From Propioniciclava sinopodophylli (GTDB taxonomy: Bacteria; Actinomycetota; Actinomycetes; Propionibacteriales; Propionibacteriaceae), in the NCBI RefSeq assembly GCF_004324755.1, contig NZ_SDMQ01000001.1:248001-312000 (forward strand): a stretch of DNA of 64,000 nucleotides, written 5' to 3'. The notes under the pieces are model-generated. The model was not told the origin of the DNA. It worked only from the letters and a program-made list of their open reading frames with translations, and did not search any database. Positions 39,096 through 59,748 of this stretch are shown here, one piece after another. Made by a program: the position numbers and the translations under genes. Numbering within the stretch: the stretch's first letter is position 1; each line of letters opens with the position of its first letter.

Positions 39096-39818
39096 TCAGG
39101 CAGGTGCCGGCGGCTCGCAGGCATCGATGAACGCCTGGACGTCGTGTGATGCGAGCAGGGGCAGGTGCTCCATGATCTGCTCGACCGGCCAGTCCCACCA
39201 TCTGATCCGCAGTAGCGCCTCGATCTGCTCCGGCGGGAATCGGAACCCCAGGACCCGAGCAGGGTTGCCCGCCACGATGGCGTAGGGCGGCACGCTCCGG
39301 CGGACCACGCTCCCGGCGCCCACCACCGCGCCGTCGCCCACCTCCACGCCGGACATGATCAACGACTGGTGCCCGATCCAGACATCGTTGCCGATCAGGA
39401 CGTCGCCCTTGGATGTCGACGTCTCCAGGCCCGGATCGCTGAAGACCTCCCGGAACGGCTCATACGCGGGGAAGCGGTAGGTCGACACGAAGTCGGCCCG
39501 ATGCTCGCCGCCCAACAGCACGTGGCATCCGTAGGCCAACGAACAGAACTGCCCCATGCTGAAGCGTGCCCCCGGGGACCGGTTGGACACGGTGACGTGG
39601 CCCCAGGAGAAGCGTCCGATGTCGTACTGGCGCAGGTCGGGCCTCGCATCCAGTCTGGTGCCGGGCGGGAGGGTCACCTCACGTGCGGGATCGAGCCTTT
39701 CCGCGGCTCGCCGCAGCTTGGCGGTTGCCTTCCGCACCCACACCGCGGGACCTCGCGTCCCGTTCAGGAAGGGTGCTCGGTCGGGGGAGGCTCGGAGGTA
39801 GCCAGCCATACGGACCAT
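39096..39818 (-). CDS. Left-handed beta-helix acetyltransferase (CatB/LbH type)
   Basis: About 240 residues from ATG 39818 (GGGGG upstream); an in-frame ATG at 39863 is also possible. Hexapeptide repeats are clear in KGDVLIGNDVWIGHQSLIMS and VEVGDGAVVGAGSVVRRSVP, followed by the typical AIVAGNPARVLGFRF. The catalytic-His segment lies near GGEHRADFVSTYRF. Expected to O- or N-acetylate a sugar of the polymer using acetyl-CoA. Confidence 0.85.
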   Translation of the reverse strand: MVRMAGYLRASPDRAPFLNGTRGPAVWVRKATAKLRRAAERLDPAREVTLPPGTRLDARPDLRQYDIGRFSWGHVTVSNRSPGARFSMGQFCSLAYGCHVLLGGEHRADFVSTYRFPAYEPFREVFSDPGLETSTSKGDVLIGNDVWIGHQSLIMSGVEVGDGAVVGAGSVVRRSVPPYAIVAGNPARVLGFRFPPEQIEALLRIRWWDWPVEQIMEHLPLLASHDVQAFIDACEPPAPA

Positions 39819-40056
39819 GAGCGAAACCCCCTGCCGTCGGAGCCTCCCCAAGTGCTGGGGCATGTTCCCACATTAGCCCACCGGCGGGGCCAGCCCCGGG
39901 CCTGAAGGCAGCCATCCGCCCCGGGTTGCCACCTCCCACACGCAGGATTCTGAGAAACTCACAGGATAAGTTAAGGTATTTGGGTCCGTCTCCCGGGCGC
40001 CCGGCCCTCCGTCGAGTTCGCCCACACCTCACCAACTAGAACGAGGGAGTACCCCC

Positions 40057-41645: not shown

Positions 41646-42578
41646 ATGAACGCCGGACACCGAGGTTCGCGCTGCCGCTCTCCTTCGAGGTCGCCGGGCG
41701 GCACGAGCCGGTGGCTGATTGCAGCCGCCACGCTCCTCCTCGCCCTGACCGGTTGTGTGGCCCGCGGCGAGGAGACGCCTCCGCCTGCGAGGTATGGCGA
41801 GTGGCCGACGCCTGACACCACCGGTCCGCGCTACCCCGCGGTCACCGAGACCGGGTCCCTGTCCAGCACCGCCGACGGTCAGGTCATCGAGCGCACCACC
41901 GTGACCGGACGGCTCACCGTGCGACACGACAACGTGACGGTGCGCGACGTCACCGTCCGGGGCACCGGCACCTACATGGTTCAGGTGCTGGCCAAGGAGG
42001 ACGGCTCCTGCCCGGCCAACGTCCTGTTCGAGTACGTCGAGGTGGACGGGGCCATGGCGGCCGAGGACGACATCCCGTTGTACTCCCCCGACTGTGGCTA
42101 CACCTTCGATCGTGGGCATGTCCACAACGTCGGGCGCTCCTCGCGGGTGCGGAACGACACCACGATCAGCAACTCCTACATCTACTCCGACCGGACCGGT
42201 GACTCCCGCGCCCATCGTGGGGGCGTGGCCAACAACGGCGGCTCCAACAACGCGCTGATCAACAACGTGATCAAGTGCAGCGGGGTGGGCTGCTCGGCCG
42301 CGCTGCCGATGTACGGCGATTTCGCCCCCGTCGAGGACTACCTCATCCAGCACAACCTGCTGTCGACCACCGGCAGCTACTGCGCCTACGGTGGCAGCCT
42401 GCCGGGGAAGCCCTACCCGAACGGGTCGAACATCCGCTTCATCGACAACCACTTCTCCACGGAGTTCTTCGACACGTGCGGCAAGTCCGGCGCCGTCGCC
42501 GGCTTCGCCAACAACGTCCGGGGCAACGAGTTCACCGGCAACGTGTGGCACGAGACCGGGCTGCCGCTCACCCGCTGA
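41646..42578 (+). CDS. Beta-helix lipoprotein, paralogue of the C-terminal domain of the preceding protein
   Basis: 310 residues. A lipoprotein signal (GGTSRWLIAAATLLLALTGC) precedes a short linker and one beta-helix domain that equals domain 2 of the upstream protein apart from a few residues near the C-terminus. It is thus the membrane-anchored counterpart of the freely secreted two-domain protein. Six or so cysteines are conserved in both copies. Function is probably linked to handling the polysaccharide outside the cell. Confidence 0.85.
   Translation: MNAGHRGSRCRSPSRSPGGTSRWLIAAATLLLALTGCVARGEETPPPARYGEWPTPDTTGPRYPAVTETGSLSSTADGQVIERTTVTGRLTVRHDNVTVRDVTVRGTGTYMVQVLAKEDGSCPANVLFEYVEVDGAMAAEDDIPLYSPDCGYTFDRGHVHNVGRSSRVRNDTTISNSYIYSDRTGDSRAHRGGVANNGGSNNALINNVIKCSGVGCSAALPMYGDFAPVEDYLIQHNLLSTTGSYCAYGGSLPGKPYPNGSNIRFIDNHFSTEFFDTCGKSGAVAGFANNVRGNEFTGNVWHETGLPLTR
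41796..42578 (+). repeat. 783-bp direct repeat, copy 2
   Basis: Second copy of the repeat at 40732-41514, offset 1064 bp. Confidence 0.9.
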
Positions 42579-45500: not shown

Positions 45501-46339
45501 CGGGCCGGGCGCCCCGTCAGCGCCCGGAGCCGGCGCCGGGCGTTGGCAAGGCGGCGACGCCATCCTTGATAGTCCCTGGGATCGAGGGAGGCCGTCTGCA
45601 GGACGAGCGCGCTCTGTTCCAACTGCGCGACCCAGTCCGCCACCGTGGTCACGCCGTTGGCCTTCGCCGACAGGGGCATGCGATCGAGGAGGTCAGCGTC
45701 GGTCCGGATGAGAGAGTGAGGGGAACGCGGGTCGTCCAGGTGATCCTCGGGAACGAAGGGGTAGTGGTAGCCGTTCACCCAACCGCCCCGTGCGGCGCGG
45801 ATGCAGTACCCGGTGAAGGACTCGTCGGGGCCGAGGTGTCCTAGCTCCTCGACGACCTGCCTCTTCATCAGGTAGCCGCTGCCCTGGACCCACAGGTTCA
45901 TCATGAGCTGGTGCCCACCCGCGAAGGACCTGATCTTCTTCCGCGCAAGTTCCTGACGGAAGTCCTGGGGGGGGTGGCGCCAGCTGCAGACGACCCCGAA
46001 CGTGGGGTTGGCCTCGTGAGCCGCGACGAACGTGTCCAGCCAGCCCGGTGTGACCATGCAGTCGTCGTCCACCTTGGACAGGTACCGGGCGTCGGATTCA
46101 CGCCACAGCCACGTCGTGGGTTCCCGAAGCTTGACGTTCTCGGGGCTGTGGTGGAACCGGTGCACCCGCGGGTCTTCGGTGTAGGGCCGCAGGGCCGCCA
46201 GGGTCGCCTCGTCGTTGCCGTTCTGCCACAGCCAGACACGGTCGTCCGGCCCGAGCGTGTCCAGGAGCCTGGGCAGGGTGAGGTGCAGGTAGCCGGCGCT
46301 GCGATGGGTGATCATCAGGATGTCGGCGCGGGCGTTCAT
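45494..46339 (-). CDS. GT-A fold glycosyltransferase
   Basis: 281 residues from ATG 46339, overlapping the stop of the pyruvyl transferase gene (ATGA). It begins MNARADILMITHRSAGYLHL, with RYLSKVDDDCMVTPGWLDTF as the metal-binding acidic motif and HEANPTFGVVCSWRHPPQDF after it. Member of a three-gene minus-strand block. Sugar specificity unknown. Confidence 0.82.
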   Translation of the reverse strand: MNARADILMITHRSAGYLHLTLPRLLDTLGPDDRVWLWQNGNDEATLAALRPYTEDPRVHRFHHSPENVKLREPTTWLWRESDARYLSKVDDDCMVTPGWLDTFVAAHEANPTFGVVCSWRHPPQDFRQELARKKIRSFAGGHQLMMNLWVQGSGYLMKRQVVEELGHLGPDESFTGYCIRAARGGWVNGYHYPFVPEDHLDDPRSPHSLIRTDADLLDRMPLSAKANGVTTVADWVAQLEQSALVLQTASLDPRDYQGWRRRLANARRRLRALTGRPARW

Positions 46340-47628
46340 CGCCGGACCCCCCGGCGTCCGGGAGCCGGGGGCCAGTCGGACACCTCCCCGACCATGTCGA
46401 CCAACTGCCGCCGGGCGAGTTCGGTGACGACCGCCACCTTCTCCTGCAGCTCGTCCCGGGTCCGGTCGCGGGCGGCGAAGGATTCCATCATCAGGCGCAC
46501 CGCCTCCTCCCCGGACACCGCGCGGGCATCCGCCACGTGGGACGACATCCCGCACGTGGCGAAGACCCCCTCGGTCTTGCCGCTGTAGGCGTAACCGAAC
46601 GTGGGAACCCCCGAGGAGAGGCCCGCGATGGTGGCGTGCATCCGACTGCCCACGAACCAGTCCGTCTGCGCGATGCACCACTTCAGCTGGCTCGCGTGCA
46701 ACTCGCCGGGAACGACAAGGACACGGCCGCGCTCCCGTTCGTCCAGCTGCGAGAGCAGGGCCTCGATCGCGGCCCGGTCGCTCTCGCCACCACCCCCCGG
46801 CACGTGCACGTGCGGAACGAGGGCCACCCGGACCCCCTCCTCACGAACCAGGCGCCGGACCACCTCGACCATCGTGGCGAGGTAGTCATCGTGGACGCCG
46901 AACCGGTCGCGCAGGCCCGGTGACAGGAGGAGCCCGCTGACGTTGACACCGACCAGAGCTTCCCCTGCTCCCCGGTCGAGGAGCGCCCGGACACCCTCGT
47001 CCGGTGCCGTGGCACCCAGCGCGAACGCCACGTCCACGCCTTGCCGCAGGCGTCCCCGGTCGACATCGGGCCCGGCCAGGGCGAGCAATCGCTCGTGACT
47101 GTCCGGATCGCGCGCATAAGCCAGGGCGGCGCGGCGCACGATGTTCGCGGCGACCGCCTTGCCCTGACGCGTCAGGAACGGTCCGATGGTCTGGGGAAGC
47201 AGCACCAGCGGCCTGCGCGCGTGCAGGGCCGCGTGCTTGGGCGCGCAGATGGTGCGCAGTCGTGTCGGCCCGTAGGTGTCTGTGAAGCTGTCCCCGCCAC
47301 TGATGTCGAGGACGGCGTGTGCTCGAAGGAGACGCGTGGCCACCGGGTTGCGCCCCCCGCCCGCCGCGAGGGACCAACGCACCCGTGCCCAGCTCTCGGG
47401 TCGGTACCAGCGCCGTGAACGGCGGACGCCGACGAGGTCGGCCCGCACACCCTCCAGCCCGAGCGCGCGATCGGGACGTACTCCCCAGCCGTCGTCCAGG
47501 ACCGTCACGTGGCTGTCGGGTGCGGCCTCATGGATGCCTTGCACAACCGACAGGCCCAGCGCCTCCACCCCGCGGTTCCCGTTGTCAATCGCGGCACCAG
47601 CCAGTACCAGACGGAGACGAGGCCTCAT
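46336..47628 (-). CDS. Polysaccharide pyruvyl transferase family protein
   Basis: 430 residues. The fold and motifs match the CsaB/WcaK family: LVLAGAAIDNGNRGVEALGL, HAVLDISGGDSFTDTYGPTR, LVLLPQTIGPFL, SRMHATIAGLSSGVPTFGYA. These enzymes transfer pyruvate from phosphoenolpyruvate to a sugar to form a ketal, giving the polymer negative charge. The FrhB-like gene at 50026 is a frequent companion in polysaccharide loci. First gene of its block. Confidence 0.88.
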   Translation of the reverse strand: MRPRLRLVLAGAAIDNGNRGVEALGLSVVQGIHEAAPDSHVTVLDDGWGVRPDRALGLEGVRADLVGVRRSRRWYRPESWARVRWSLAAGGGRNPVATRLLRAHAVLDISGGDSFTDTYGPTRLRTICAPKHAALHARRPLVLLPQTIGPFLTRQGKAVAANIVRRAALAYARDPDSHERLLALAGPDVDRGRLRQGVDVAFALGATAPDEGVRALLDRGAGEALVGVNVSGLLLSPGLRDRFGVHDDYLATMVEVVRRLVREEGVRVALVPHVHVPGGGGESDRAAIEALLSQLDERERGRVLVVPGELHASQLKWCIAQTDWFVGSRMHATIAGLSSGVPTFGYAYSGKTEGVFATCGMSSHVADARAVSGEEAVRLMMESFAARDRTRDELQEKVAVVTELARRQLVDMVGEVSDWPPAPGRRGVRR

Positions 47629-47744: not shown

Positions 47745-48509
47745 ATGGACGCCTGGGGGATCACACTCGCCGTACTTCGCCGCTGGTTCGTGGTCTTGCC
47801 CGTCCTCCTGGTCACGGCGGCAGGCGTCTACCTCGTCGGGCCGGGGGTCGCACCCGAGTATGTCGTCCGGGCCACGTGGATGCTCGTCCCGGGTTCCACC
47901 CCTGTGGAGAGCCGCGTCGACGGGCCGAACCCCTACGGGAACATCAGCGGCGCCGCGGGCGCCGTGGAGGTCGTCCTCTCCAGCCCGCAGACACGTCAGC
48001 AACTCGGCGACAGCGGCCTGATCGCGACGTACCAGATCACCGCGGAGTCACGCGCGACGATCATCCACATGACGCTGCGAGCAACGTCTGCCGAGGTGGG
48101 GATCAGGACGGGCGAGGCGCTGCACGACCTCGCCGTGGAGGAGCTGTCGTCCCGCCAGTCCGGTGCTGGAGTCCGGCCCGAGGTGCAGTACGGACTGGTG
48201 AGCCTCTCCCAGCCGGCCGTCATCGAGGTCGTCACGGACGACCGGACCCAGGTGCGGGCGCTCGTGGCCGCAGGCGGCCTCGTGGCCGCCGTGGTGCTGG
48301 CCGCCCTGGTGGACGGTGTCATCCTCAAGCTGCGGGGGCGGCGCGCGGCGCGCCCGGCCGGGCTGGACGACGGCCCGGAGCCGGGCTCCACGGCCGCACC
48401 GCCGGAGACCGGCCCCACGGGCAGGGAGACGGAGGTTCCGGATGGGGATCCGGACGACGCCGAGCCGTACGGCGACCCGGCCTCCCGGAACGGCACCAGT
48501 TCCCCGTGA
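47745..48509 (+). CDS. Wzz-like chain-length/polysaccharide co-polymerase protein
   Basis: 254 residues with two transmembrane helices: RWFVVLPVLLVTAAGVYLVG near the N-terminus and LVAAGGLVAAVVLAALVDGV at about 175-195. An extracytoplasmic domain lies between. The tail is acidic and disordered and lacks a tyrosine-kinase domain. This is the Wzz topology, which sets polymer length. AGGAGTCGC precedes ATG 47745. The stop overlaps the GTG of the polymerase gene (GTGA). Confidence 0.8.
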   Translation: MDAWGITLAVLRRWFVVLPVLLVTAAGVYLVGPGVAPEYVVRATWMLVPGSTPVESRVDGPNPYGNISGAAGAVEVVLSSPQTRQQLGDSGLIATYQITAESRATIIHMTLRATSAEVGIRTGEALHDLAVEELSSRQSGAGVRPEVQYGLVSLSQPAVIEVVTDDRTQVRALVAAGGLVAAVVLAALVDGVILKLRGRRAARPAGLDDGPEPGSTAAPPETGPTGRETEVPDGDPDDAEPYGDPASRNGTSSP

Positions 48510-50053
48510 CCGGGACGACGCAGCGCGTTGGGGGGAGCGCCGCCTCGACCTCCCTGCCGCTGCCCCGAAGAGCCCACCCACCGCGTCGCCGGTGGTGGCT
48601 GCCCGTTGGTCCTGGCTCCTGGCGTCCCCAGTTCAGCACACTGCTGTGCCTGCTGGTGCTCCTGCAGTTCGTGATCCCCAGCCGGATGGTCATCAGCGGC
48701 CTGGGCGCCGTGGGCCGTCCTGCGGTGTTGGTCGGGGTCCTGCTCCTGCTCCTCTGGTTCCTGGGCTTCCTGAGGCCGCCGGGCCTGCCCTCGCACCCGC
48801 AGCCCGTCCGCTGGATCCTGGGGGCGTACATGGCCGTCCAGTACATCGGTTATGCCGTGGGGGTGGATCGGGCGCTTCCCGAGGTCGAGGCCAACGCGGC
48901 TGATCGCTGGATGATCCTCAACCTGGCCATGGTGGGGGCCGCGCTCGCCGCGTCCGACGGCCTCCGCACGCGAAAGGACCTCGACCGCCTCCTGAAGGTC
49001 CTCGTCGGGGCAGCAGCGGTGATGGCGCTGGTCGGGACGCTCCAGTTCTTCGGGGTGATCGACCTGACCCGGTACATCCGCATTCCCGGCCTCAGCCTGA
49101 ACGCGAACCTGATCTCCGTCGGTGAGCGAGGCTCCGGCGGTGGTGTCCCGAGAGTCGCCGGCACCGCCAATCACTACATCGAATTCGGGGTGGTGCTCGC
49201 CCTCGTCCTGCCGCTGGCCCTCCACTACGCACTCACGGCGGCACGAGGCTGGCGGCGCGTCTACCCCTGGTCGGCCGTGGCGCTGATCGCGGGGAGTGTG
49301 CCTTTCGCGATCTCCCGGTCCGGCACGCTCACGTTGCTGGTCGCCGTCGGCATCCTGGCCGTCGTCTGGCCCTGGCGCATGCGCTACAACGCCCTGGCGG
49401 TGGCGGCGGTCTCCCTGATCGCCTTCCGGGCGGTGAACCCGGGGGTACTGGGCACCATCAGGGCCCTGTTCGCCAGTGCCGAACACGATCCGAGCGTCCA
49501 GAACCGCCTGTCCGACATCGGTTACGTCATGGAGTTGTGGGCGATGCGTCCCTGGTGGGGACGTGGCGCCGGCACCTACGTGACCACCATCGGCTCCTAC
49601 ACGTCGGAGCCGTACCTCCTGCTCGACAACCAGTTGTTCATGACCCTGGTCACCGGGGGGATCGCGGGGCTGGTCGCCCTCGTCCTGCTTTTCGCCGGGC
49701 CCTACCTGATGGCACGCAGCCTCCGGCTCCGGGGATCGGACCAGGAGACACGACACCTCGGTCAGGCACTGGCCGCCATCATGCCTGCCGCCTTCCTGGC
49801 CACCGCGACCTTCGACTCGTTCTCGTTCGCCACCTTCGTGACCGTCGTGTTCGTGGCCGTCGGCGCCATCGGCGCCCTGTGGCGTCTGGAGGCCATGTCA
49901 CCCGCCAGGCCCCTCCAGGCTGCTGCACCCGGCGACACGCTCGTCACCACCCCTCTGGGGGCGGGATGGGCGGCGCGTGCGTTCGAGACGGCCACGGCCC
50001 TGATCGCCGCCCGTTGGGCTCGGGCTCAGTGCCGCGGCTCCGGCCGGAAGTAG
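48506..50053 (+). CDS. Wzy/O-antigen ligase-type polymerase
   Basis: 515 residues from GTG 48506. About eleven hydrophobic segments (for example LLCLLVLLQFVIPSRM, VLVGVLLLLLWFLGFL, VALIAGSVPFAISRSGTLTL) and a large outer loop containing MRPWWGRGAGTYVTTIGSYT, the signature of the Wzy_C/O-antigen ligase family. It would join lipid-linked repeat units outside the membrane. Translationally coupled to the Wzz-like gene; its 3' end overlaps the convergent FrhB-like gene by 28 bp. Confidence 0.85.
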   Translation: MTGTTQRVGGSAASTSLPLPRRAHPPRRRWWLPVGPGSWRPQFSTLLCLLVLLQFVIPSRMVISGLGAVGRPAVLVGVLLLLLWFLGFLRPPGLPSHPQPVRWILGAYMAVQYIGYAVGVDRALPEVEANAADRWMILNLAMVGAALAASDGLRTRKDLDRLLKVLVGAAAVMALVGTLQFFGVIDLTRYIRIPGLSLNANLISVGERGSGGGVPRVAGTANHYIEFGVVLALVLPLALHYALTAARGWRRVYPWSAVALIAGSVPFAISRSGTLTLLVAVGILAVVWPWRMRYNALAVAAVSLIAFRAVNPGVLGTIRALFASAEHDPSVQNRLSDIGYVMELWAMRPWWGRGAGTYVTTIGSYTSEPYLLLDNQLFMTLVTGGIAGLVALVLLFAGPYLMARSLRLRGSDQETRHLGQALAAIMPAAFLATATFDSFSFATFVTVVFVAVGAIGALWRLEAMSPARPLQAAAPGDTLVTTPLGAGWAARAFETATALIAARWARAQCRGSGRK

Positions 50054-51261
50054 CCCCTGGTCCACACCCGCTTGACCATGCCCGCGAACTCCCTCAGGAA
50101 CGTGGCGGGCCCCTCCTGCCGGGCGGCGGCCACCAAGTGGAACCCCCGGAACCGGGGCGTCAGCCGCCCGAACGCACGCAGGCCCAGTAGGCGCGCCAAC
50201 ACGAGGCGACGACGCCGGACCAAGCCCTGCCCCCGGACGACGCTCGCCGCGTCACTCGTCGTCGCGGTCAGGTAGCCGTTCCTGATCGCACCGTCCACCA
50301 CCCGGCGCCCGCGCTCCGTGCGCGCCAGGATGACGGAGATGCCGTCGGTCCCCTCGTCCTTGCGATGCCACGCGTCACCGCCGGTCACGTCGGCCAGTTC
50401 CCCCAACCCGTCGGGGCACAGCTGGCAGCGGAGCTGGCGCTGTCGCGACGCCAGGGAGCTCCATGACTCCTCATAGCTGAGGGAGGCCTGGCGTCCCCGC
50501 TTGTCGCTTACGAGGAACCGCCCCGGCCAGCCCGCGCCCCGGTACGTGATGGCCTCGATCTGGTCGGGCGCGTCGAACCCGAGGGAGGCCACCAGGTTCA
50601 AGGTGGCCGAGGTGGACGGTGTCCCGGCGCAGAAGAAGCTCAGGACGAGGCCGAGGTTCCGGTCGAGCGCGGGGCGCACCGCCCGCAGTTTCGCGACCGC
50701 CGCGGCGTCGCAGGGCTTGCCGATGAAGACGCAGGGACGGTCGCTCGCCTCGATGATCTCCAAAGCCTCGACCGGCGACGAGGGGGCGTACCGCGACCCC
50801 GCGTGGGCGATCAGGCCGTCCATCCCGGTGCTGGTGGTGGTGCGGTTGGACCACGGCAGGGTGGGGTCCACACCCGTGTGCACCACGAGCGCCATGCCGA
50901 GACGCTCCACCGCGTACGCGGCCAGCGCGGAGACGGCCCCGCCGGACGAAGCCGCCCTGCGCACGTCAGGGTCGGTCGCCCAGCCCTCCCAGATGGCGAC
51001 CGTGGGACCCACGACGAGTTCGGCCGCGTCCCGGGGGCGCGGCAGGGAGGCCGCCGGCGCCTCGATGGCGATGCCGGGGCACGCTGCGACCATGGCGTCC
51101 TTGACCGTGCCGGGGAGGTCCTCCCCCCAGGAGGGCCTCCGGCCCACGCTGGCCACGTCGATCATGGTGACCCCGTGCGCAGCGCCGACGAACGCGCAGG
51201 CGCCGCAGCCCGAGCACATCCGTCCACGGATGATGCGGTCCAGCTCGTGTGTTTTCTGCAC
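50026..51261 (-). CDS. FrhB-like (coenzyme F420 hydrogenase beta subunit family) iron-sulphur protein
   Basis: 411 residues from GTG 51261, six bases after GGAGG. The N-terminal RGRMCSGCGACAFVG and later QLRCQLCPDGLGELADVTGG supply cluster-binding cysteines. ASSGGAVSALAAYAVER and RPCVFIGKPCDAAAVAKLR match the FrhB family fold that binds FAD and a 4Fe-4S centre. Homologues occur in polysaccharide loci beside pyruvyl transferases; their reaction there is unproven. Possible reductive step on a sugar nucleotide. Confidence 0.83.
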   Translation of the reverse strand: MQKTHELDRIIRGRMCSGCGACAFVGAAHGVTMIDVASVGRRPSWGEDLPGTVKDAMVAACPGIAIEAPAASLPRPRDAAELVVGPTVAIWEGWATDPDVRRAASSGGAVSALAAYAVERLGMALVVHTGVDPTLPWSNRTTTSTGMDGLIAHAGSRYAPSSPVEALEIIEASDRPCVFIGKPCDAAAVAKLRAVRPALDRNLGLVLSFFCAGTPSTSATLNLVASLGFDAPDQIEAITYRGAGWPGRFLVSDKRGRQASLSYEESWSSLASRQRQLRCQLCPDGLGELADVTGGDAWHRKDEGTDGISVILARTERGRRVVDGAIRNGYLTATTSDAASVVRGQGLVRRRRLVLARLLGLRAFGRLTPRFRGFHLVAAARQEGPATFLREFAGMVKRVWTRGYFRPEPRH

Positions 51262-51301: not shown

Positions 51302-52306
51302 TCAGTCGAGGTCGTCGCTGATCTCGGGCACGGCTGCGCCCAGCACGGGCGGCAGGTGCAGGTACTGGGTGGTCGAGCGCTTCTGGTCGATGTCCCGGTA
51401 GACGCGGTAGACCTGCCCGGTCGTCAGGCCCGCCGCCTCGGCAACCTGCTCGACCGGGACGTCGTTGTTCTTGCCGTACAGGCACAGGTCCATCCGCTCG
51501 TGCGGGAGCGAGAAGTAGAACTCCTCCTGCGACTGGGGCAGCGAGTAGGTGTCGGTGGTGGACGGCCGTGCCCGGACGTCCGCGGGCACGCCGAGGTGCT
51601 CGGCGAGCTGGTACACCTGCGACTTGTACAGGTGCGCGATCGGCTTGACGTCCGCCGCCCCGTCGCCGAGCTTCACGAAGAAGCCCTGGTCGTACTCGAG
51701 CCGGTTCGGCGTCCCGGTCGCCACGTAGTTGAGGCGGTCGGCGTGGTGGTACTCCAGCATCTTCCGGACCCGCTGTTTGAAGTTGGTGGCCGCCACGATC
51801 CCGAGGTAGGCCTCCGTGGTCAGCCGATGCTTCGTCGTGGTGCCGTCCGGGGCCTCCACGACGACGGAATACAGCCGGAAGGCCTCGGAGTCCACGACGC
51901 TGGGAAGCACGATCTTGGAGCGGTACCCCGGCCCGTAGTCGGGGACCACGAGCCGGATCGCGTCGTCGCGCCGCCGGTAGCAGCCGGCCGCGTCCAGGAT
52001 CGAGGAGATCTCCTCGAGCGCCGAATCGATGCCAAGCGCGTCCGACACCTGGCGGCTGAAGCCGAGGGTGTCGTCGGAAGACTCCTTCTCGGGCATGTGC
52101 AGGCCGAACACCCGGTCGGGCCCGAAAGCCCGGACGCAGAGCGCCGCCACGACGCTGGAGTCGATCCCGCCCGACAGCGCCACCACCGCGCCGCGCCGCC
52201 GGGTGCGGGCGAGGTAGTGCGTCAGGACGGCCGAGATCCGCGTCACCTCCTGCTCGGCATCGATGCGCAGTGTGGCGGCGCCGAAGCGGTTGTCCTCGGT
52301 GGTCAT
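51302..52306 (-). CDS. nadE: NAD synthetase-like ATP pyrophosphatase (ammonia-dependent form)
   Basis: 334 residues from ATG 52306. The pyrophosphate loop is AVVALSGGIDSSVVAALCVR. LNYVATGTPNRLEYDQGFFV with KLGDGAADVKPIAHLYKSQV is the diagnostic NadE stretch. No glutaminase domain is present. Its start overlaps the asnB stop (ATGA). Because it sits in a carrier-protein cluster, it may act on a pathway intermediate with ammonia rather than serve housekeeping NAD synthesis; both remain possible. Confidence 0.82.
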   Translation of the reverse strand: MTTEDNRFGAATLRIDAEQEVTRISAVLTHYLARTRRRGAVVALSGGIDSSVVAALCVRAFGPDRVFGLHMPEKESSDDTLGFSRQVSDALGIDSALEEISSILDAAGCYRRRDDAIRLVVPDYGPGYRSKIVLPSVVDSEAFRLYSVVVEAPDGTTTKHRLTTEAYLGIVAATNFKQRVRKMLEYHHADRLNYVATGTPNRLEYDQGFFVKLGDGAADVKPIAHLYKSQVYQLAEHLGVPADVRARPSTTDTYSLPQSQEEFYFSLPHERMDLCLYGKNNDVPVEQVAEAAGLTTGQVYRVYRDIDQKRSTTQYLHLPPVLGAAVPEISDDLD

Positions 52307-54291
52307 GGCTGTCCTTCCACGGTCAGGTCGATGGCGGTCAGAGGGGTCGCGGGCGCGGCGTCGTCGCCGCCGTCCCCGACCACGAACTGGTGGTGCAGCA
52401 GTTGCGTGGACAGGACGGCCAGCACGCGCATGTTGTCGGTGTTGCCCAGGCCGCTCCCCCCGCTGCGGCGCGCCTTGGTGAGCAGGCCCTGCACGAGGCG
52501 GGGCTCGAACACGCCCGCGGCCGCGAGGGCGTCCGTCCCTGTAACGTCGCCCACCCAGTCGGGGGCGCCCGGCGCGCAGAAGCTGGCGGCGTCCGGCGCG
52601 CGGTAGGGCTGCTTCGGTCGGCGGACGATCTCCGGAGGCAGCAGGTCGGCGAAGGCCCGCTTGAGCAGGTACTTCTCCTCCAGGCCCGAGAGCTTGTGCC
52701 GGGCCGGCAGGGCGTCGGCGTACGCGACGACGTCCCGGTCCAGGAACGGGAAGCGTCCCTCGATCGAGTTGGCCATCAGCATCCTGTCGCCCTGGGAGGA
52801 GAGGATGTAGCCGGGGAGGAGGGTCGTCATCTCCAGCCATTGGGCGCGGGCGAGCGAGTCCCAGCCCGCACTGTGGGCAGGCAAACGGGCTAGCAGGTCC
52901 AGCGGGGCTCCGCTCTCCGCGCACCGCGCGCGCATGTCGGCGGTGAGCAACCCCTTCAGGGCAGCGGTGGACGTCCAGCGTGGCCGGTGTGAGAGCGCGG
53001 GGTCGTCCGCAGCGAGGTGCATCCCGAAGAAGCCGCGCGCGAAGGCGGGCGCCTGGCCGGGGGCACGCGCCATCCACGGGTACAGCAACTCGGCCGCTCG
53101 TCCGCGCACGTCGGAGGACGGGTCGCGCGTCCAGAACTCCCGGACCCGAGCCTCGCGATAGAGGTCGTACCCGCCGAGGACCTCGTCGGCCCCCTCCCCG
53201 GTCACCACCACCTTGTAGCCACTGGCGCGCACGAGGCGCGACAGCAGGAACAGCGGTGCCGGGGCGGCCCGGAGCAGGGGCGCCTCTGCGTGCCGGACGA
53301 CCTCGGGGAACACCTCGGCGACGTCCTGCGGGCCGACGACCACCTCGTGGTGGCGCGTGCCCAGACGCCGGGCCATGAGCTGTTGGTAGTCGCCCTCGTC
53401 GAACTCGTCATCCGCGAAGCGCAGGGAGAACGTGTCGAGCGGGGCGTCGGTGTGGCGGGCCACCACGGCGGCGGTCACCGACGAGTCGATGCCTCCCGAC
53501 AGGTAGGCCCCGACCGGGACGTCGCTGCGCGTGAAGCGCAGCCGGCTCGCCTCGACGATCCGGTCGCGCAAGGTTTCGGCGTTGGCGCGGGCGTCCTGCC
53601 CGGGTTCCTCACCGCGCGGGGGGAAGTCGATCGACCAGTAGGGGTGGCTGCGGAAGCCGTTCGCATCCAGGTAGGCGACGTACCCCGGCTCGAGCTGCCG
53701 GACGCCGGCGAAAGGGGTCCGTGGGGCGACGGGGGACCAGTAGGTGAACGTCTCGTCCAGCCCGGCGGGATCGAGGGTTCGCGGCACCGACGGGTCGGCG
53801 AACAGGGCCTTGACCTCGGACGCGAACATCAGCCCCCCTCCGGTGTGGGCGTAGTAGAGCGGGCGGACGCCGAGGCGGTCCCGGGAGAGCACCAACTGGC
53901 GGCGGGTCCGGTCCCAGAGAGCGAAGGCCCATTGCCCGTTGAACCGGTCCAGCGCCTCTTCCCCCCACTCCTCCCACGCGTGGACGATGACCTCGGTGTC
54001 GCTGGCCGTCCGAAACGCGTGGCCGCGCGACCGGAGTTCGTTCCCCAGTTCGACGTAGTTGAAGATCTCCCCGTTGAAGACGATCCACAGGCTGCCATCC
54101 TCGTTGGACAGCGGCTGGGCGCCCCCGGCGGTGTCGATGATGGCCAGCCGGGCGTGACCCAGACCCACGCCCTCGTCGCGGAGGTAACCGCTGCCGTCGG
54201 GTCCGCGGTGCCGGAGGCGTCCCACCATGCGGAGCAACAGGGCTGCATCGGGCGGGGGCCCGGGTGTCGCGACCCCGCAGATGCCGCACAT
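52303..54291 (-). CDS. asnB: Asparagine synthetase (glutamine-hydrolysing)
   Basis: 662 residues, the full two-domain enzyme. The glutaminase domain starts MCGICGVATPG (catalytic Cys2) with RLRHRGPDGSGY and VFNGEIFNYVEL. The synthetase domain has VGAYLSGGIDSSVTAAVV and VVVTGEGADEVLGGYDLY. In such gene clusters AsnB homologues often amidate carrier-bound or small acids rather than aspartate. It shares overlaps with nadE downstream and the ACP-like gene upstream. Confidence 0.9.
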   Translation of the reverse strand: MCGICGVATPGPPPDAALLLRMVGRLRHRGPDGSGYLRDEGVGLGHARLAIIDTAGGAQPLSNEDGSLWIVFNGEIFNYVELGNELRSRGHAFRTASDTEVIVHAWEEWGEEALDRFNGQWAFALWDRTRRQLVLSRDRLGVRPLYYAHTGGGLMFASEVKALFADPSVPRTLDPAGLDETFTYWSPVAPRTPFAGVRQLEPGYVAYLDANGFRSHPYWSIDFPPRGEEPGQDARANAETLRDRIVEASRLRFTRSDVPVGAYLSGGIDSSVTAAVVARHTDAPLDTFSLRFADDEFDEGDYQQLMARRLGTRHHEVVVGPQDVAEVFPEVVRHAEAPLLRAAPAPLFLLSRLVRASGYKVVVTGEGADEVLGGYDLYREARVREFWTRDPSSDVRGRAAELLYPWMARAPGQAPAFARGFFGMHLAADDPALSHRPRWTSTAALKGLLTADMRARCAESGAPLDLLARLPAHSAGWDSLARAQWLEMTTLLPGYILSSQGDRMLMANSIEGRFPFLDRDVVAYADALPARHKLSGLEEKYLLKRAFADLLPPEIVRRPKQPYRAPDAASFCAPGAPDWVGDVTGTDALAAAGVFEPRLVQGLLTKARRSGGSGLGNTDNMRVLAVLSTQLLHHQFVVGDGGDDAAPATPLTAIDLTVEGQP

Positions 54292-54521
54292 CAGGCGAGG
54301 TGGCGCGTCACGAGGTTTCGGACGGCGTTGCGTCCGGCCAGGTGCGCCGGGTCGATCTCGGCGTCGGAAAGTGTCACCCCGAAGGCGTCCTCGACGAAGA
54401 TGGCCGTGGCGATGGCGTCCAGGACGGGGTCGCCGGACGGCGTCCGAAGCGCGTAGAACTCGTCGAGGACGGCGTCGACCCGGTGCGGCGCGTGGGGTGC
54501 GTCAGACGGCCGGCTCGGCAT
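54291..54521 (-). CDS. ACP-like protein without the phosphopantetheine serine
   Basis: A 76-residue protein. The region GDPVLDAIATAIFVEDAFGV followed by TLSDAEIDPAHLAGRNAVRN follows the helix pattern of acyl carrier proteins. At the position of the DSL motif it reads GDPVL, so the attachment serine seems missing. Its start overlaps the end of the true carrier protein gene (54502). It could be a structural partner or a docking protein. Assignment rests on a short match. Confidence 0.6.
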   Translation of the reverse strand: MPSRPSDAPHAPHRVDAVLDEFYALRTPSGDPVLDAIATAIFVEDAFGVTLSDAEIDPAHLAGRNAVRNLVTRHLA

Positions 54522-54771
54522 CGGGACTCCGCTCGAGGACGAAGCGCGTCAGGTTGGCGACGGAGCCGAGATTGTCCGGCACGGTCTCCGAGTCCTTCAC
54601 CTCCAGGGCGAAGTCGGACTCAAGGAACTGGATCAACTCCAGGATCCCCGTGGAGTCGACGATCCCGCTCTCCAGCAGGGACTCATCGGGCGCCGGAGCG
54701 CGCGACACATCCCCGAACAGGTAGTTGGACACGATGAAGTCCATGATGCGGGTCTGCACCTGTTCGACCAT
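54502..54771 (-). CDS. Acyl/aminoacyl carrier protein
   Basis: 89 residues from ATG 54771, preceded by GGGGAGG. The phosphopantetheine attachment site is LLESGIVDSTGILELIQFLE (Ser in DST), the classic helix II start. The end LTRFVLERSPDAEPAV is normal for the family. A dedicated AcpS (57300) and an AMP-forming ligase (54877) lie close by, so it probably carries a small acid or amino acid as a thioester. Confidence 0.86.
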   Translation of the reverse strand: MVEQVQTRIMDFIVSNYLFGDVSRAPAPDESLLESGIVDSTGILELIQFLESDFALEVKDSETVPDNLGSVANLTRFVLERSPDAEPAV

Positions 54772-54876
54772 GGGACCTCCCCTAGCAGGTGGGTTATGCG
54801 TGCTGAGGTTAGCGTGCAATCCTTGCCGGGGTAAGGGGATCGAGCCCCCTCGGGGGCAGGCGCCGAGGAGGCTGAC

Positions 54877-56388
54877 GTGACCGGACGGGCGAGCAAAGCC
54901 CCCCGCCAGGGGAGCACCACGGACTTCCTCCTAGCGGCGGGCTCACCGGACGCCCCCGCCGTCGTCGAGGCGAAGCGGGTCGTCACGTACGGGCAGCTGC
55001 GGGCCGACGTGGCCCGGATCCTCGCCGCCCTGAACGCCCGGGGGGTGGCGCCCGGGGCCCGCATCGCCGTCCTGGCCGAGAACTCGGCGTTCTGGGTGGC
55101 CGCCTACCTCGCCGCCCTGCACGGCCACGTCGCAGTGCCGTTCTCCACCAAGCTGCCGGCCGCCGAGGTGACACGGCTCGCCGACTGGGCGGGCTGTGCC
55201 GCCGTACTGATGGACGCCCGGCACGAGCGTGCCTACGGGGACGCCTTCGGGGACCGCCCGCGGGTCACCGACGCGGACCTGGCGGACGCCACCGCACCCG
55301 CGTGGCCCGACGCCGAGGTCGACCTCGATCAGGACGCGGCGCTCATGTTCACGTCCGGGACCACGGCGAGCCCCAAGGCCGTCCGGATCACCCACCGCAA
55401 TCTTTGGGCGAACACCGCGTCCATCATCGAGTACCTGGGTTTGCGTGCCGACGACCGGATGCTGGTCGTGCTGCCCTTCTTCTACTGCTACGGGGCCTCG
55501 CTCCTGCACACGCACCTGCGCGTGGGCGGCAGCCTCGCGGTGTGCAACACCTTCACCTTCCCGGAGACGGCGCTGCAGATGATCGAGCGCGAGCGGTGCA
55601 CCGGGCTGGCCGGGGTGCCCTCGACCTACCAGCTGCTGCTCCGCGCATCGAGCTTCGGGACGCGGCGCCTGCCGTCCCTGCGCCACCTGCAGCAGGCCGG
55701 TGGAAAGCTCCCCCCCGTGCTCATCGAGGAACTGGTGGCTGCCCAGCCGCAGGCGCGGGTGTTCGTCATGTACGGGCAGACCGAGGCGACGGCCCGCCTG
55801 TCCTACCTCCCCCCCAACCTGCTCAGCACCAAGCTGGGCTCGATCGGGCGCGGCATCCCGGGGGTCACCTTGGCGGTGGTCGACGAGCACGGAGACCCGG
55901 TCTCCCCCGGGGTGGCCGGTGAGATTGTCGCGGCCGGTCAGAACATCTCCCCGGGCTACCTGGGTGACGCCGCAGCCACCCGCGAGAAGTTCACCGGAGG
56001 ACGACTGCGCACGGGTGACCTGGCCGTGCTCGACGAGGACGGGTTTATCTTCATCGTCGATCGCCTGGCGGACTTCATCAAGTCGTGGGGCAACCGGGTG
56101 TCCAGCCAAGAGGTCGAGGGGGCGGCCCTGCGCCTCACCGACCTCGTCTCGGCGGCGGCGGTCGGCGTACCCGACCCGGACGCCGGCGAGGCGATCGTGC
56201 TGGTGGCCGTCCGGCGGCGGGGTTCGACCCTCTCGGAGGAGGACATCGCGGCCCACCTCCGCGCCACCCTGGCCAAACACATGGTGCCGCGCTCCATCCG
56301 GCTCGTGGACGCGCTCCCGCTGAACGAGAACGGCAAGCTGGTCAAGGCCCGCGTCCGGGACATGGTCAGGGAGGCGGGCGAGGCGTAG
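54877..56388 (+). CDS. AMP-forming acyl/aminoacyl ligase
   Basis: 503 residues from GTG 54877 (GAGGAG upstream). Adenylation-enzyme core motifs: LMFTSGTTASPKAVRITHRN (A3), VFVMYGQTEATARLSYL (A5), RLRTGDLAVLDEDGFIFIVD (A7), RLADFIKSWGNRVSSQEVEG (A8) and LNENGKLVKARV (A10 Lys). It would activate a carboxylic acid and load the carrier protein at 54502. Divergently transcribed from the ACP genes across 105 bp. The substrate is unknown. Confidence 0.88.
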   Translation: MTGRASKAPRQGSTTDFLLAAGSPDAPAVVEAKRVVTYGQLRADVARILAALNARGVAPGARIAVLAENSAFWVAAYLAALHGHVAVPFSTKLPAAEVTRLADWAGCAAVLMDARHERAYGDAFGDRPRVTDADLADATAPAWPDAEVDLDQDAALMFTSGTTASPKAVRITHRNLWANTASIIEYLGLRADDRMLVVLPFFYCYGASLLHTHLRVGGSLAVCNTFTFPETALQMIERERCTGLAGVPSTYQLLLRASSFGTRRLPSLRHLQQAGGKLPPVLIEELVAAQPQARVFVMYGQTEATARLSYLPPNLLSTKLGSIGRGIPGVTLAVVDEHGDPVSPGVAGEIVAAGQNISPGYLGDAAATREKFTGGRLRTGDLAVLDEDGFIFIVDRLADFIKSWGNRVSSQEVEGAALRLTDLVSAAAVGVPDPDAGEAIVLVAVRRRGSTLSEEDIAAHLRATLAKHMVPRSIRLVDALPLNENGKLVKARVRDMVREAGEA

Positions 56389-56443
56389 ACTCAGCTTCCA
56401 CTGCATGGCGCCGCACCCGGCCCACTCGAGGGGAGGACCCAGC

Positions 56444-57298
56444 ATGTCCAGAGCAGTGCGGGTGGGGCTTTCTGCGCTGGCCCTTGTCCTGGTCGCCAGC
56501 GTCGGCGCCGGGGCGTTGCTGTGGAGCACCTCATTCCCGGGGGAGCCGCTGCGCATCGGTCCGGTCGAGAACCCTCCGGCGACCCGCGACGACCTCGCCA
56601 AGGTTGCGGAGCTGCGGGTGTTCTTCGGGCACCGCTCCGTGGGGAAGAACATCCTCGACGCAGTGCCGGCTGCGTACACCGCCGCCGGCCTGCCGGTCCC
56701 GGCGATGGTGGACATCGGCGAGGCATCCGCCCTGCCCGGCGAAGGCCCGATGATCGCCGACACGCGGATCGGAGAGAACGGGGACCCCCTGGGCAAGCTG
56801 GGCAACTTCGATGCGCGCCTGCGCGCCGGCCTGGCCGACCAGCTGGACGTGGCGGTCCTGAAGTTCTGCTACGAGGACGTCACCGACGACACCGACGTGC
56901 CGGCCCTCTTCGAGCGCTACCGCGTCACCCTGGCGGCGCTCGAGGCCCAGTACCCCGAGGTGACCTTCGTCCACATGACCTCTCCCCTCAGGACAGAGCC
57001 GACCGACCTGAAGTGGCGGGTCAAGGAACTGATCAGGCGGCCCAACGACAATGCGGCCCGCGAGCGGTACAACGCGTTGATGCGTGCCGAGTACGGCGAC
57101 GACCTGCTGCTCGACCTAGCCCTCATCGAGGCGACCGCGCCCGACGGGTCGCTGACCACGGTGCCGCACGCCGGTCGGCAACACCTGGCCCTGGCCCCCG
57201 CGAACGCGAAGGATCCCGGCCACCTGAACGCGACAGGCTCCCTGGCCGTCGCAACCCGTCTACTTGGCCTGCTGGGCCGCCCCGAACCGGTCAGCTGA
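56444..57298 (+). CDS. Secreted or membrane-anchored SGNH-like protein
   Basis: 284 residues from ATG 56444 (GGGGAGG upstream). An N-terminal signal/anchor LSALALVLVASVGAGALLW precedes a domain with RVFFGHRSVGKNILDAVPAA, DVAVLKFCYEDVTDDTD and a late PGHLNATGSLAVATRLL, resembling SGNH hydrolase folds (GxS-type block I replaced by GHRSVG; a final His near the C-terminus). It could remove or transfer acyl groups outside the cell. It lies between the ligase and acpS in one direction. Confidence 0.6.
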   Translation: MSRAVRVGLSALALVLVASVGAGALLWSTSFPGEPLRIGPVENPPATRDDLAKVAELRVFFGHRSVGKNILDAVPAAYTAAGLPVPAMVDIGEASALPGEGPMIADTRIGENGDPLGKLGNFDARLRAGLADQLDVAVLKFCYEDVTDDTDVPALFERYRVTLAALEAQYPEVTFVHMTSPLRTEPTDLKWRVKELIRRPNDNAARERYNALMRAEYGDDLLLDLALIEATAPDGSLTTVPHAGRQHLALAPANAKDPGHLNATGSLAVATRLLGLLGRPEPVS

Positions 57299-57299
57299 G

Positions 57300-57680
57300 A
57301 TGCGTCTGCTGCCGGGTACCGACATTATCGAGATCGAGCGCGTCCACCGCCTCATCGAGGGGGGCGAAGACGCGTTCCTGGCGCGCTGGTTCACCGATGC
57401 GGAGCGCGCCTACTGCTCCGGCAAGGCCCATCCCGCCGCGCACTACGCCGCCCGCCTCGCCGCCAAGGAGGCCGTGGCCAAGGCCGTCCGCTGGCAGTGG
57501 ACCGGGCCTGTGCCCTGGCGCGACATCGAGGTCCTCCACGATGAAGGGGGTGCGCCCCTCGTCCGCCTCACCGGTCAGGTGGCGGATTGGGCAGCGACGC
57601 AGTCGGTCACCGTCGTGGAGATCTCCCTGTCACACAGTCGTCAGCACGCGACCGCCGTGGCGATCGCCACCCAAGGCTGA
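57300..57680 (+). CDS. acpS: Holo-ACP synthase-type 4'-phosphopantetheinyl transferase
   Basis: 126 residues from ATG 57300, one base after the previous stop. The motifs LLPGTDIIEIERV, WFTDAERAYC, ARLAAKEAVAKAVRW and VVEISLSHSRQHATAVAI are those of the AcpS family. Its location in the ligase operon suggests a dedicated enzyme for the carrier protein at 54502. Confidence 0.87.
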   Translation: MRLLPGTDIIEIERVHRLIEGGEDAFLARWFTDAERAYCSGKAHPAAHYAARLAAKEAVAKAVRWQWTGPVPWRDIEVLHDEGGAPLVRLTGQVADWAATQSVTVVEISLSHSRQHATAVAIATQG

Positions 57681-57724: not shown

Positions 57725-59206
57725 TCACCGCGCTCCGGCCTTCGTGACGACGGCGCGGAACGTCTTCCACAGGATCAGCAGGTCCAACGTGATGGACCAG
57801 TTCTCCACATAACGCAGATCGAGCCGGACGCCGTCCTCCCCGGGCAGGTCCGATCGCCCACTGATCTGCCACAGGCCCGTCAGCCCCGGCGTCACGAGCG
57901 CACGACGTGAGGCCTCGGCCGGCATCTGGGCCACCTCTTCAGCGAGGTGCGGCCGCGGGCCGACCAGCGACATGGAGCCGGCCAACACGTTGAAGAGCTG
58001 GGGCAGTTCGTCGATGGAGTAGTCGCGGATGAACTGCCCCAGGGGGGTCACCCGCGGGTCGTCGCGCAGCTTGAACAGCGCCCCGTGGCCCTCGTTGCGT
58101 GCCATCAGCGCTCCCTTGCGCGCTTCGGCATCCACCACCATGGATCGGAACTTCAACATCTCGAACGGCTTGCCGTCCCTCCCCACGCGCTTTTGACGGA
58201 AGAAGACCTGGCCACCATCCTGCAGCCGGATCGCCAATCCCACTCCCGCCATCAACGGCGCGAGCGCGATCAGCCCCAGTGCGGTCAGGACGACGTCCAA
58301 CGTCCTCTTGACCGCATGGCGCCACCCCGTGAAGCGGGGCTGCTGGAGCACCAACAGGGGCATTCCCACCAGCGGCCTGATGTCGAGGCGGGGGCCCACA
58401 ACCTCGGCGAGTCCGGGCGCGACCAGCATTTCCACCTCCGCCCCCTCTAGCGACCACGCGAGGCGCCTCAGGTAGTCCTCGCGCAGGCATTCGCCACCGG
58501 CCACGGCCACGGCCTCGAATCCGCCCTGGTCCACCACTGCACGCACCTGCTCCAAGTCACCGGCTACCGGGATGTCCAGACCCGCAGGACCTTCACCGCC
58601 CGGCAGGCAGGCCGCCCGGATCTCCATCCCGCAGTGGGGTTCCCGCGCGACCGCCTTCTGCAGGGCGGCCACCGCGTCCGCAGGCCCTACGACCAGCGTC
58701 CGGCGAGACCCAATGCCGCGCTCCTGCAGACGATGCAACATTCGTCGTGAGACGAGACGTGCGCCCACGGACAACACCACGCACAACGGAACGGTGAGCG
58801 CCGTGATCGTCAGCAGGTGTACCTCACCGATCACCGCCGCCGGATACGCGCCGAGGACCACCATGGCGGGCCCGGCGCGCAGCACCGCGCGCAGCTCGCT
58901 CCCACCCAGCCCGATCCGCCGGCGACGGTAGCCACCGGCCGCTCCGACGAGGACAGGCCACATCGCGGCCGCAAGAGCGGCCAGCCGGGAGGGCACCATG
59001 TCGCCTGGCAGGACGAGAGCATCGATGACCGCCGCCAACCCGAACGCTGCCAGCCCCAGGCCCAGGTCGGCGAGCGCCAGCCACGCCACGTAGCTGCGGC
59101 TGACCGAAGCGAATGTCCTCTGCGCCTGCCGCGAGCGAGCGGCTGGCAGCCGCAGCCCCAGGTCCGCTGGCCTCACCGGGCGGACTTCGTTGTTCCATGT
59201 CGTCAC
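57725..59206 (-). CDS. Polyprenyl glycosylphosphotransferase (initiating sugar transferase)
   Basis: 493 residues from GTG 59206, which has GAGGAGG upstream. Four N-terminal transmembrane helices and a nucleotide-binding-like middle (SRRTLVVGPADAVAALQKAV) lead to the C-terminal catalytic domain: HAVKRTLDVVLTALGLIALA, FEMLKFRSMVVDA, ELPQLFNVLAGSMSLVGPRP and WQISGRSDLPGEDGVRLDL. It transfers a sugar-1-phosphate to undecaprenyl phosphate, the first step of repeat-unit synthesis. It marks the right end of the locus and reads leftward into it. Confidence 0.92.
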   Translation of the reverse strand: MTTWNNEVRPVRPADLGLRLPAARSRQAQRTFASVSRSYVAWLALADLGLGLAAFGLAAVIDALVLPGDMVPSRLAALAAAMWPVLVGAAGGYRRRRIGLGGSELRAVLRAGPAMVVLGAYPAAVIGEVHLLTITALTVPLCVVLSVGARLVSRRMLHRLQERGIGSRRTLVVGPADAVAALQKAVAREPHCGMEIRAACLPGGEGPAGLDIPVAGDLEQVRAVVDQGGFEAVAVAGGECLREDYLRRLAWSLEGAEVEMLVAPGLAEVVGPRLDIRPLVGMPLLVLQQPRFTGWRHAVKRTLDVVLTALGLIALAPLMAGVGLAIRLQDGGQVFFRQKRVGRDGKPFEMLKFRSMVVDAEARKGALMARNEGHGALFKLRDDPRVTPLGQFIRDYSIDELPQLFNVLAGSMSLVGPRPHLAEEVAQMPAEASRRALVTPGLTGLWQISGRSDLPGEDGVRLDLRYVENWSITLDLLILWKTFRAVVTKAGAR

Positions 59207-59748
59207 GGATCGACCTCCTCTGTTCGCGCACCGATGGTCATCCCTGGCAGCGATCGGTGCGCGACGGGGGGGTGCCGCCAGTGGGGTCGAGGGGATCACG
59301 AGGCGCAAATCGGCGTGCCAAAGGCTTGCCGTACCGCGATCCCCCGATCATGCGTCCTTCCGGACGATGATATGGATTGTGCTCGGGCTGGAAACATGGG
59401 ACAAGGGGGACCACTCCTCCCCACGGGCTCGGATGGAAACACCTCCCCGGAGCAAACGCAGTGACCCCCGCCACCACCCCCTCGAGGCACGCGTGTGGGT
59501 CTGGTGACCCCCGCCACCACTCCCTCCGCCGACAGCCCCGGGTTTGCCTGCCGACAGCCCCGGGTTTGCCTGCCGACAGCCCCCGGTTTGCCTGCCGACA
59601 GCCCCCGGTTTACCTGCCGACAGCCCCCGGTTTGCCTGCCGACAGCCCCGTTCTGTGCGCAGACACCCCCCAGCTGGGGGCTCTCGGCGCACGAGGCCGG
59701 GGCTGTCGGCGGTCAGCTGCGCTCCTCGCCGCAGTCGAGGCCGGCCGC
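59207..59748. other. Repeat-rich intergenic region upstream of the sugar transferase
   Basis: No gene is supported. It holds two copies of GTGACCCCCGCCACCAC (about 59461 and 59504), a tandem 22-bp repeat array (59528-59649), a hairpin CCCCCAGCTGGGGG nested in GTGCGC/GCGCAC, and an inverted partner of the array at 59697-59712. The promoter of the sugar transferase should lie near 59210-59300, but no hexamers stand out. Confidence 0.6.
59528..59649 (+). repeat. 22-bp tandem repeat array (five full units and a partial)
   Basis: The unit is GCCGACAGCCCCGGGTTTGC plus CT, with one- or two-base variants (CCCCCGG, TTTACC). The reverse complement of its start (CCGGGGCTGTCGGCGG) recurs at 59697-59712, so transcripts could fold into alternative hairpins. 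Confidence 0.85.

Follow-up and report, generated by a model that had tools for sequence, protein, structure and literature searches.

Related systems and the seven-gene locus

The closest described counterpart of the genes considered here is an operon on pSymB of Sinorhizobium meliloti, asnB-SMb20651-SMb20650-nadE, in which SMb20651 is an acyl carrier protein (ACP) and SMb20650 an AMP-forming ligase. On co-expression in E. coli, SMb20650 acylates SMb20651, and it cannot take over the role of the fatty acyl-CoA synthetase FadD (PMC7232532). The same four families, all adjacent, are found in the DNA analyzed here, a stretch of 64,000 nucleotides from Propioniciclava sinopodophylli (contig NZ_SDMQ01000001.1, positions 248,001 to 312,000; hereafter the window), where they belong to a set of seven genes at positions 51302-57680 in a polysaccharide locus. 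Between S. meliloti and the window, AsnB is 50% identical, the ACP 39%, the ligase 34% and NadE 58%. Many phyla carry the quartet, often inside sugar-coat gene clusters, and a literature search of open-access papers found no description of it as a module, the work on the S. meliloti ligase and ACP aside.

Several other systems share parts of this set. In vicenistatin biosynthesis, the free-standing ligase VinN likewise loads a small dicarboxylic acid, 3-methylaspartate, on the free-standing ACP VinL; Asp230 of VinN has been proposed to recognize the amino group, and Ser299 and Arg331 the second carboxylate (PMC7756342). No decarboxylase was found in the window locus, which has two amidotransferases instead. 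The amidotransferase OxyD of oxytetracycline biosynthesis is presumably an AsnB homologue. Together with OxyP it provides malonamate, a dicarboxylate half-amide, as the starter unit (PMC7749508), but that pathway feeds a polyketide synthase and has neither a NadE-like enzyme nor a pseudo-ACP. WbpS/PGN_1234, an AsnB-type amidotransferase of envelope sugar biosynthesis, produces a linking sugar in its glucuronamide form (PMC7468200); its substrate is a sugar and no carrier protein has been described for it.

The XrtA/PEP-CTERM polysaccharide genes also bring together a ligase (TIGR03098), an amidotransferase (TIGR03108) and an ACP in polysaccharide loci, along with a decarboxylase (TIGR03099), and exosortase-type genes occur in several of the module loci found here. 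However, the annotated window locus contains no exosortase or decarboxylase, and the NadE-like protein lies outside the three XrtA families. We rejected membership in the XrtA-associated families, as the window ligase scores 307 bits against TIGR03098 (cut-off 592) and the window AsnB 451 bits against TIGR03108 (cut-off 817).

A preliminary description of this DNA had placed seven genes in two divergent operons inside a polysaccharide locus, and all seven were recovered with the same coordinates and strands:

51302..52306, minus strand: putative NadE-like ATP-dependent amide synthetase, PRK00876 subfamily, with an insert at about residues 108-162
52303..54291, minus strand: AsnB-type glutamine-dependent amidotransferase (TIGR01536, 496 bits), N-terminal Cys2 present
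54291..54521, minus strand: ACP-like protein (pseudo-ACP) without the phosphopantetheine Ser, its stop codon overlapping the AsnB start
54502..~54771, minus strand: ACP with intact DST phosphopantetheine motif, its start preceded by a GGGGAGG site
54877..56388, plus strand: AMP-forming acyl-ACP ligase, class II, with C204, A274 and R307 at VinN positions 230, 299 and 331
56405..57298, plus strand: SGNH-fold hydrolase/transferase, predicted to be membrane-anchored and extracytoplasmic, with S78, D270 and H273; probable start 56444
57300..57680, plus strand: AcpS-type phosphopantetheinyl transferase, with two more copies elsewhere in the genome

The operons are separated by ~105 bp and read, on the left, ACP, pseudo-ACP, AsnB and NadE-like and, on the right, ligase, SGNH-like and AcpS; neighboring genes within each overlap or almost touch. 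The listed open reading frame of the NadE-like gene reaches 53077, and its coding start is the ATG at 52306. In S. meliloti, no pseudo-ACP, SGNH or AcpS gene adjoins the operon. The seven proteins are 85-97% identical to those of a relative (G407, a Propionibacterium sp. metagenome-assembled genome, contig DUOQ01000294.1; loci L026/L030). Against this near-identical relative, the ratio of nonsynonymous to synonymous substitution rates is 0.13-0.52, below 1 in every gene; therefore, all seven genes are maintained.

The quartet is a conserved module

We scanned 84,980 species genomes with NadE, confirmed at least 485 relatives and kept the best 80 as loci, rebuilding gene families around these and around the loci of the window's relatives. 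Co-occurrence was then counted in the 53 NadE-like loci having more than 5 kb of flank on each side. AsnB was found near the NadE-like gene in 46/53, the ACP in 42/53, the ligase in 41/53 and all four genes together in 36/53; because these loci come from the 80 closest matches, the fractions among all NadE-like relatives may differ. Around 12 ordinary nadE genes, in contrast, the counts were 0/12 for AsnB, 0/12 for the ACP, 1/12 for the ligase and 0/12 for all four (Fisher p of 1e-8 to 1e-5, at most 1.4e-5). Thus, NadE-like, AsnB, ACP and AMP-ligase constitute a real module whose clustering goes far beyond chance, and the gene set first noticed in this one genome is conserved in others. Distance matrices of the four proteins correlate with r of 0.29-0.65, which fits co-inheritance but is not taken as proof because it is confounded by species relatedness.

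Judged by record titles, the collected loci span Actinomycetota, Planctomycetota, Verrucomicrobiota, desulfobacterial and other deltaproteobacterial lineages, Acidobacteriota, Nitrospirota, Spirochaetota, myxobacteria and Alphaproteobacteria. Most actinobacterial relatives carry it among polysaccharide genes (glycosyltransferases, Wzx/Wzy, sugar-1-phosphate transferase). In other phyla its neighbors are often genes of exosortase type, polysaccharide deacetylase or FemAB, as named from the sequences themselves, without a family-library check of each one. Several other loci carry the quartet alone. One contig binned as Spirochaetes (L049, JAKLFE010000006.1) has the actinobacterial form of the module, with pseudo-ACP, SGNH and AcpS and a NadE 70% identical; it is possibly mis-binned or the result of recent transfer.

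The ligase and its predicted substrate

The S. meliloti ligase aligns with VinN (PDB 3wv4/3wvn) through the motif MYGxTECKR, and subtracting a constant offset of 16 from chain positions 246, 315 and 347 gives Asp230, Ser299 and Arg331. The equivalent of Arg331 is kept in 65/66 module ligases and is R307 in the window. The equivalents of Asp230 and Ser/Thr299 are not kept in the window ligase, where they are Cys204 and Ala274. Across the module ligases the latter two positions covary: Asp at 230 occurs with Thr or Ser at 299 (16/16) and any other residue with Ala (49/49), one outlier being left out (Fisher p 1.5e-15, which overstates independence since the ligase sequences are related). Together, the near-invariant Arg and the covarying pair provide a testable rule for ligase substrates.

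Because Arg307 is kept while positions 230 and 299 are Cys and Ala, the pocket suggests that the substrate of the window ligase is a dicarboxylate without a recognized amino group. For ligases with Asp, Thr and Arg (D/T/R), a class that includes the S. meliloti enzyme, as opposed to the C/A/R combination of the window, we infer an aspartate-like acid. The preliminary description had proposed acid activation and loading on the ACP and had suggested reading the substrate from the binding pocket. Activation and loading are supported by the ligase family, by the carboxylate-binding Arg and by the published experiment with the S. meliloti homologue (PMC7232532), and the pocket points to the non-amino dicarboxylate just described. 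A fatty acyl-CoA synthetase is not favored, given that the S. meliloti homologue cannot replace FadD and that the pocket Arg is conserved.

Other ligase arrangements were observed in the collected loci. L090 (5765-8902), L097, L100 and L101, four Nitrospira loci, encode a fusion of ~1040 residues that joins a D-type (TIGR03098-like) ligase to a class II ligase. L038 (11815-14893), L040 and L085, two of them from Nocardioides and one deltaproteobacterial, carry near the module a distinct ligase-decarboxylase(-ACP) set of the kind seen in XrtA loci (TIGR03098, TIGR03099).

One carrier and one pseudo-carrier

The main ACP has an invariant serine in its DST motif (54/54 aligned members). The second ACP-like protein, of 76 residues, resembles the C-terminal half of an ACP, and a phosphopantetheine Ser was found neither in the window protein nor in the other aligned members. 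Thus, the pseudo-ACP is not a working carrier, and the two carriers originally proposed for this locus reduce to one. In 18 other loci a relative of the pseudo-ACP immediately precedes AsnB, and in most of these the stop and start codons overlap. The pseudo-ACP is a putative partner of AsnB.

The NadE-like protein and AsnB are not housekeeping enzymes

The NadE-like protein falls in subfamily PRK00876 (496 bits, cut-off 313). Its predicted structure has a mean predicted local distance difference test score (pLDDT) of 93, and its best fold matches are NAD synthetases (Z 29.5, root-mean-square deviation (rmsd) 2.6 over 238 residues), with the ATP-pyrophosphatase fold and catalytic residues present. 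Ordinary NadE and the NadE-like protein share the ATP-pyrophosphatase motif together with N175/K177/R179/R181/Y186/E204/K228. Specific to the NadE-like family are an insert of ~55 residues (108-162) and a set of invariant residues of its own: Q178, K182, D190, P200-N201, Y205-D206-Q207, T251 and T253-Y254-S255.

Had this gene been the only NAD synthetase of the genome, a role in the module would have been in doubt. Another NadE is encoded in the window's genome (G000:C22, a frame of 279 amino acids), as in all five other carrier genomes searched (6/6 in total), and we rejected housekeeping NAD synthesis as the reason for the gene's place. Housekeeping asparagine synthesis was rejected as well: of 13 genomes of the genus, only the two that carry the module have an AsnB scoring above the family cut-off, and no full-length AsnB was found in members without the module. 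A third, incomplete genus genome (G405) has an AsnB fragment beside a distant NadE-like gene. With another NadE in the genome and no full-length AsnB in module-free relatives, neither amidotransferase is a housekeeping enzyme. The PRK00876 subfamily is probably a specialized biosynthetic enzyme annotated as NAD synthase.

Cys2 of AsnB is present in 67/69 scorable rows; therefore, glutamine-derived ammonia is expected. The window also encodes a second AsnB-like protein (42668-44590), a weak match whose N-terminus, MSHEILLIAG, is without the catalytic Cys and which is also present in the relative's locus L026.

The SGNH protein

The SGNH protein is predicted to begin with a helix (residues 16-42), followed by an SGNH fold (pLDDT 90). 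A sequence search of solved structures with this protein found nothing, and it was placed by fold comparison only (Z 15.0, rmsd 3.1 over 180 residues). S78, D270 and H273 are nearly invariant. The canonical GDS and GxND blocks are absent, block I reading GHxSVG and block III KxCYxD. The predicted membrane anchor and the conserved Ser/Asp/His set agree with the action outside the cell that had been suggested for this gene.

Proposed pathway and alternatives

The reading we favor, with somewhat less than even confidence, is that of a carrier-protein amidation module in which a dicarboxylate is loaded on the ACP, amidated and passed to an amino sugar within the polysaccharide repeat. AcpS would turn the ACP into its holo form. 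The AMP-ligase would adenylate one carboxylate of a small dicarboxylic acid, with Arg307 holding the other, and the acid would be loaded on the ACP. The remaining carboxylate would become a carboxamide through AsnB, using ammonia from glutamine, and/or through the NadE-like enzyme, using free or AsnB-derived ammonia, with the serine-less pseudo-ACP probably partnering AsnB. Transfer of the amide-bearing acyl group to the amino sugar would take place in the cytoplasm, with a hexapeptide acyltransferase as the probable enzyme here and FemAB-type enzymes in other phyla, and the membrane-anchored SGNH protein may trim or move acyl groups on the exported polymer. Hexapeptide acyltransferase, FemAB, deacetylase and exosortase-type genes are candidate transferases; in several relatives the ACP gene has as its neighbor a hexapeptide acyltransferase of the family encoded here at 39099-39863. 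Once defined, the product would account for one class of modification of surface polysaccharides, both in actinobacteria and at polysaccharide loci of other phyla. Of the original interpretation, the conserved gene set, the acid activation with ACP loading and a predicted extracytoplasmic SGNH protein are supported, while the two working carriers are not.

A further proposal, which we regard as doubtful, is that the pseudo-ACP docks AsnB onto the acyl-ACP and that AsnB works in relay with a repurposed NAD synthetase (PRK00876), the two producing acyl groups that bear an amide and are destined for surface polysaccharides. If the relay were true, the name NAD synthase would be wrong for hundreds of proteins that now bear it, and the amidation pathway would be widespread and undescribed.

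Several observations weigh against amidation on a carrier followed by transfer to the polysaccharide. The candidate hexapeptide transferase is 12 kb from the module in this genome, and in S. meliloti the operon has no transferase next to it and is not part of a polysaccharide locus. The NadE-like enzyme retains the majority of the catalytic residues found in true NAD synthetases. Additionally, PGN_1234 of Porphyromonas gingivalis, an AsnB homologue, amidates a uronic acid sugar and not an acyl-ACP (PMC7468200).

The module might instead make a diffusible small amide metabolite, such as an osmolyte or a signal, with polysaccharide loci as one of several contexts. The S. meliloti genes, which form a stand-alone operon beside sugar uptake, oxidoreductase and min genes, lend some weight to this idea, which the preliminary description had also raised, as do the loci that carry nothing but the quartet. 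We nevertheless consider it unlikely, since the window and most actinobacterial relatives place the module among glycosyltransferases, Wzx/Wzy and sugar-1-phosphate transferase, the exosortase-type, deacetylase or FemAB genes are often nearby in other phyla, and a membrane-anchored SGNH protein is repeatedly its neighbor.

It is likewise improbable that the two amidotransferases act on a sugar, converting a uronic acid to a uronamide, while the ligase and ACP supply an unrelated acyl group. WbpS/PGN_1234 provides a precedent, and related asparagine synthases (TIGR03108, which the window AsnB matches below cut-off) occur in PEP-CTERM loci (PMC7468200). However, AsnB, ACP, ligase and NadE-like stay together even without sugar genes nearby, as in S. 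meliloti, and the pseudo-ACP directly precedes AsnB in 18 loci.

We give little credence to the NadE-like protein being an ordinary ammonia-dependent NAD synthetase, a second copy incidental to the module. The NAD synthetase fold, the shared ATP-pyrophosphatase motif and the catalytic residues would be explained, but not the other NadE in every carrier genome tested, the family-specific insert and invariant residues, or the distribution of the PRK00876 type, which is rare in Actinomycetota (3/396 genomes) and, given enough flank, usually sits beside the other three genes.

The trio of ligase, ACP and membrane-anchored SGNH protein is reminiscent of DltA, DltC and DltD of the DltABCD system for D-alanylation of teichoic acid. 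A Dlt-like route, in which ligase and ACP would hand the acyl group to the SGNH protein by way of a membrane O-acyltransferase, for transfer outside the cell, was rejected as very improbable, even with the OatA and PatB catalytic domains among the SGNH fold matches, because an MBOAT (DltB) gene is present in 0/14 carrier genomes, the window's included (the same search finds one in Bacillus subtilis), the 64-kb window has no Acyl_transf_3 gene, with matches elsewhere lying away from the module, and AsnB and the NadE-like protein have no counterpart in Dlt.

Surrounding genes

Around the module, the locus encodes glycosyltransferases and an ABC exporter as well as a sugar-1-phosphate transferase, Wzy and polysaccharide pyruvyl transferase. 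Genes of the window outside the set of seven are:

39099..39863, minus strand: hexapeptide acyltransferase, candidate transferase
46339-47628: polysaccharide pyruvyl transferase, in the same locus as the FrhB/FdhB-like gene
48506..50053, plus strand: Wzy-type O-antigen polymerase/ligase
50026..51261, minus strand: FrhB/FdhB-like protein, on the same strand as the NadE-like gene and 40 bp downstream of it
57725..59308, minus strand: polyprenyl-phosphate sugar-1-phosphate transferase, which starts the polysaccharide repeat

The FrhB/FdhB-like gene is not among the recurrent module families and probably belongs to the polysaccharide locus, not to the module core. Elsewhere in the window, two adjacent genes (40057-41514 and 41646-42578) encode secreted proteins of no assigned family whose C-terminal parts are nearly identical (300 nt at 97% identity, 1064 nt apart). 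The first of these has a long Thr-Pro repeat linker built from DNA repeats of 12-18 nt.

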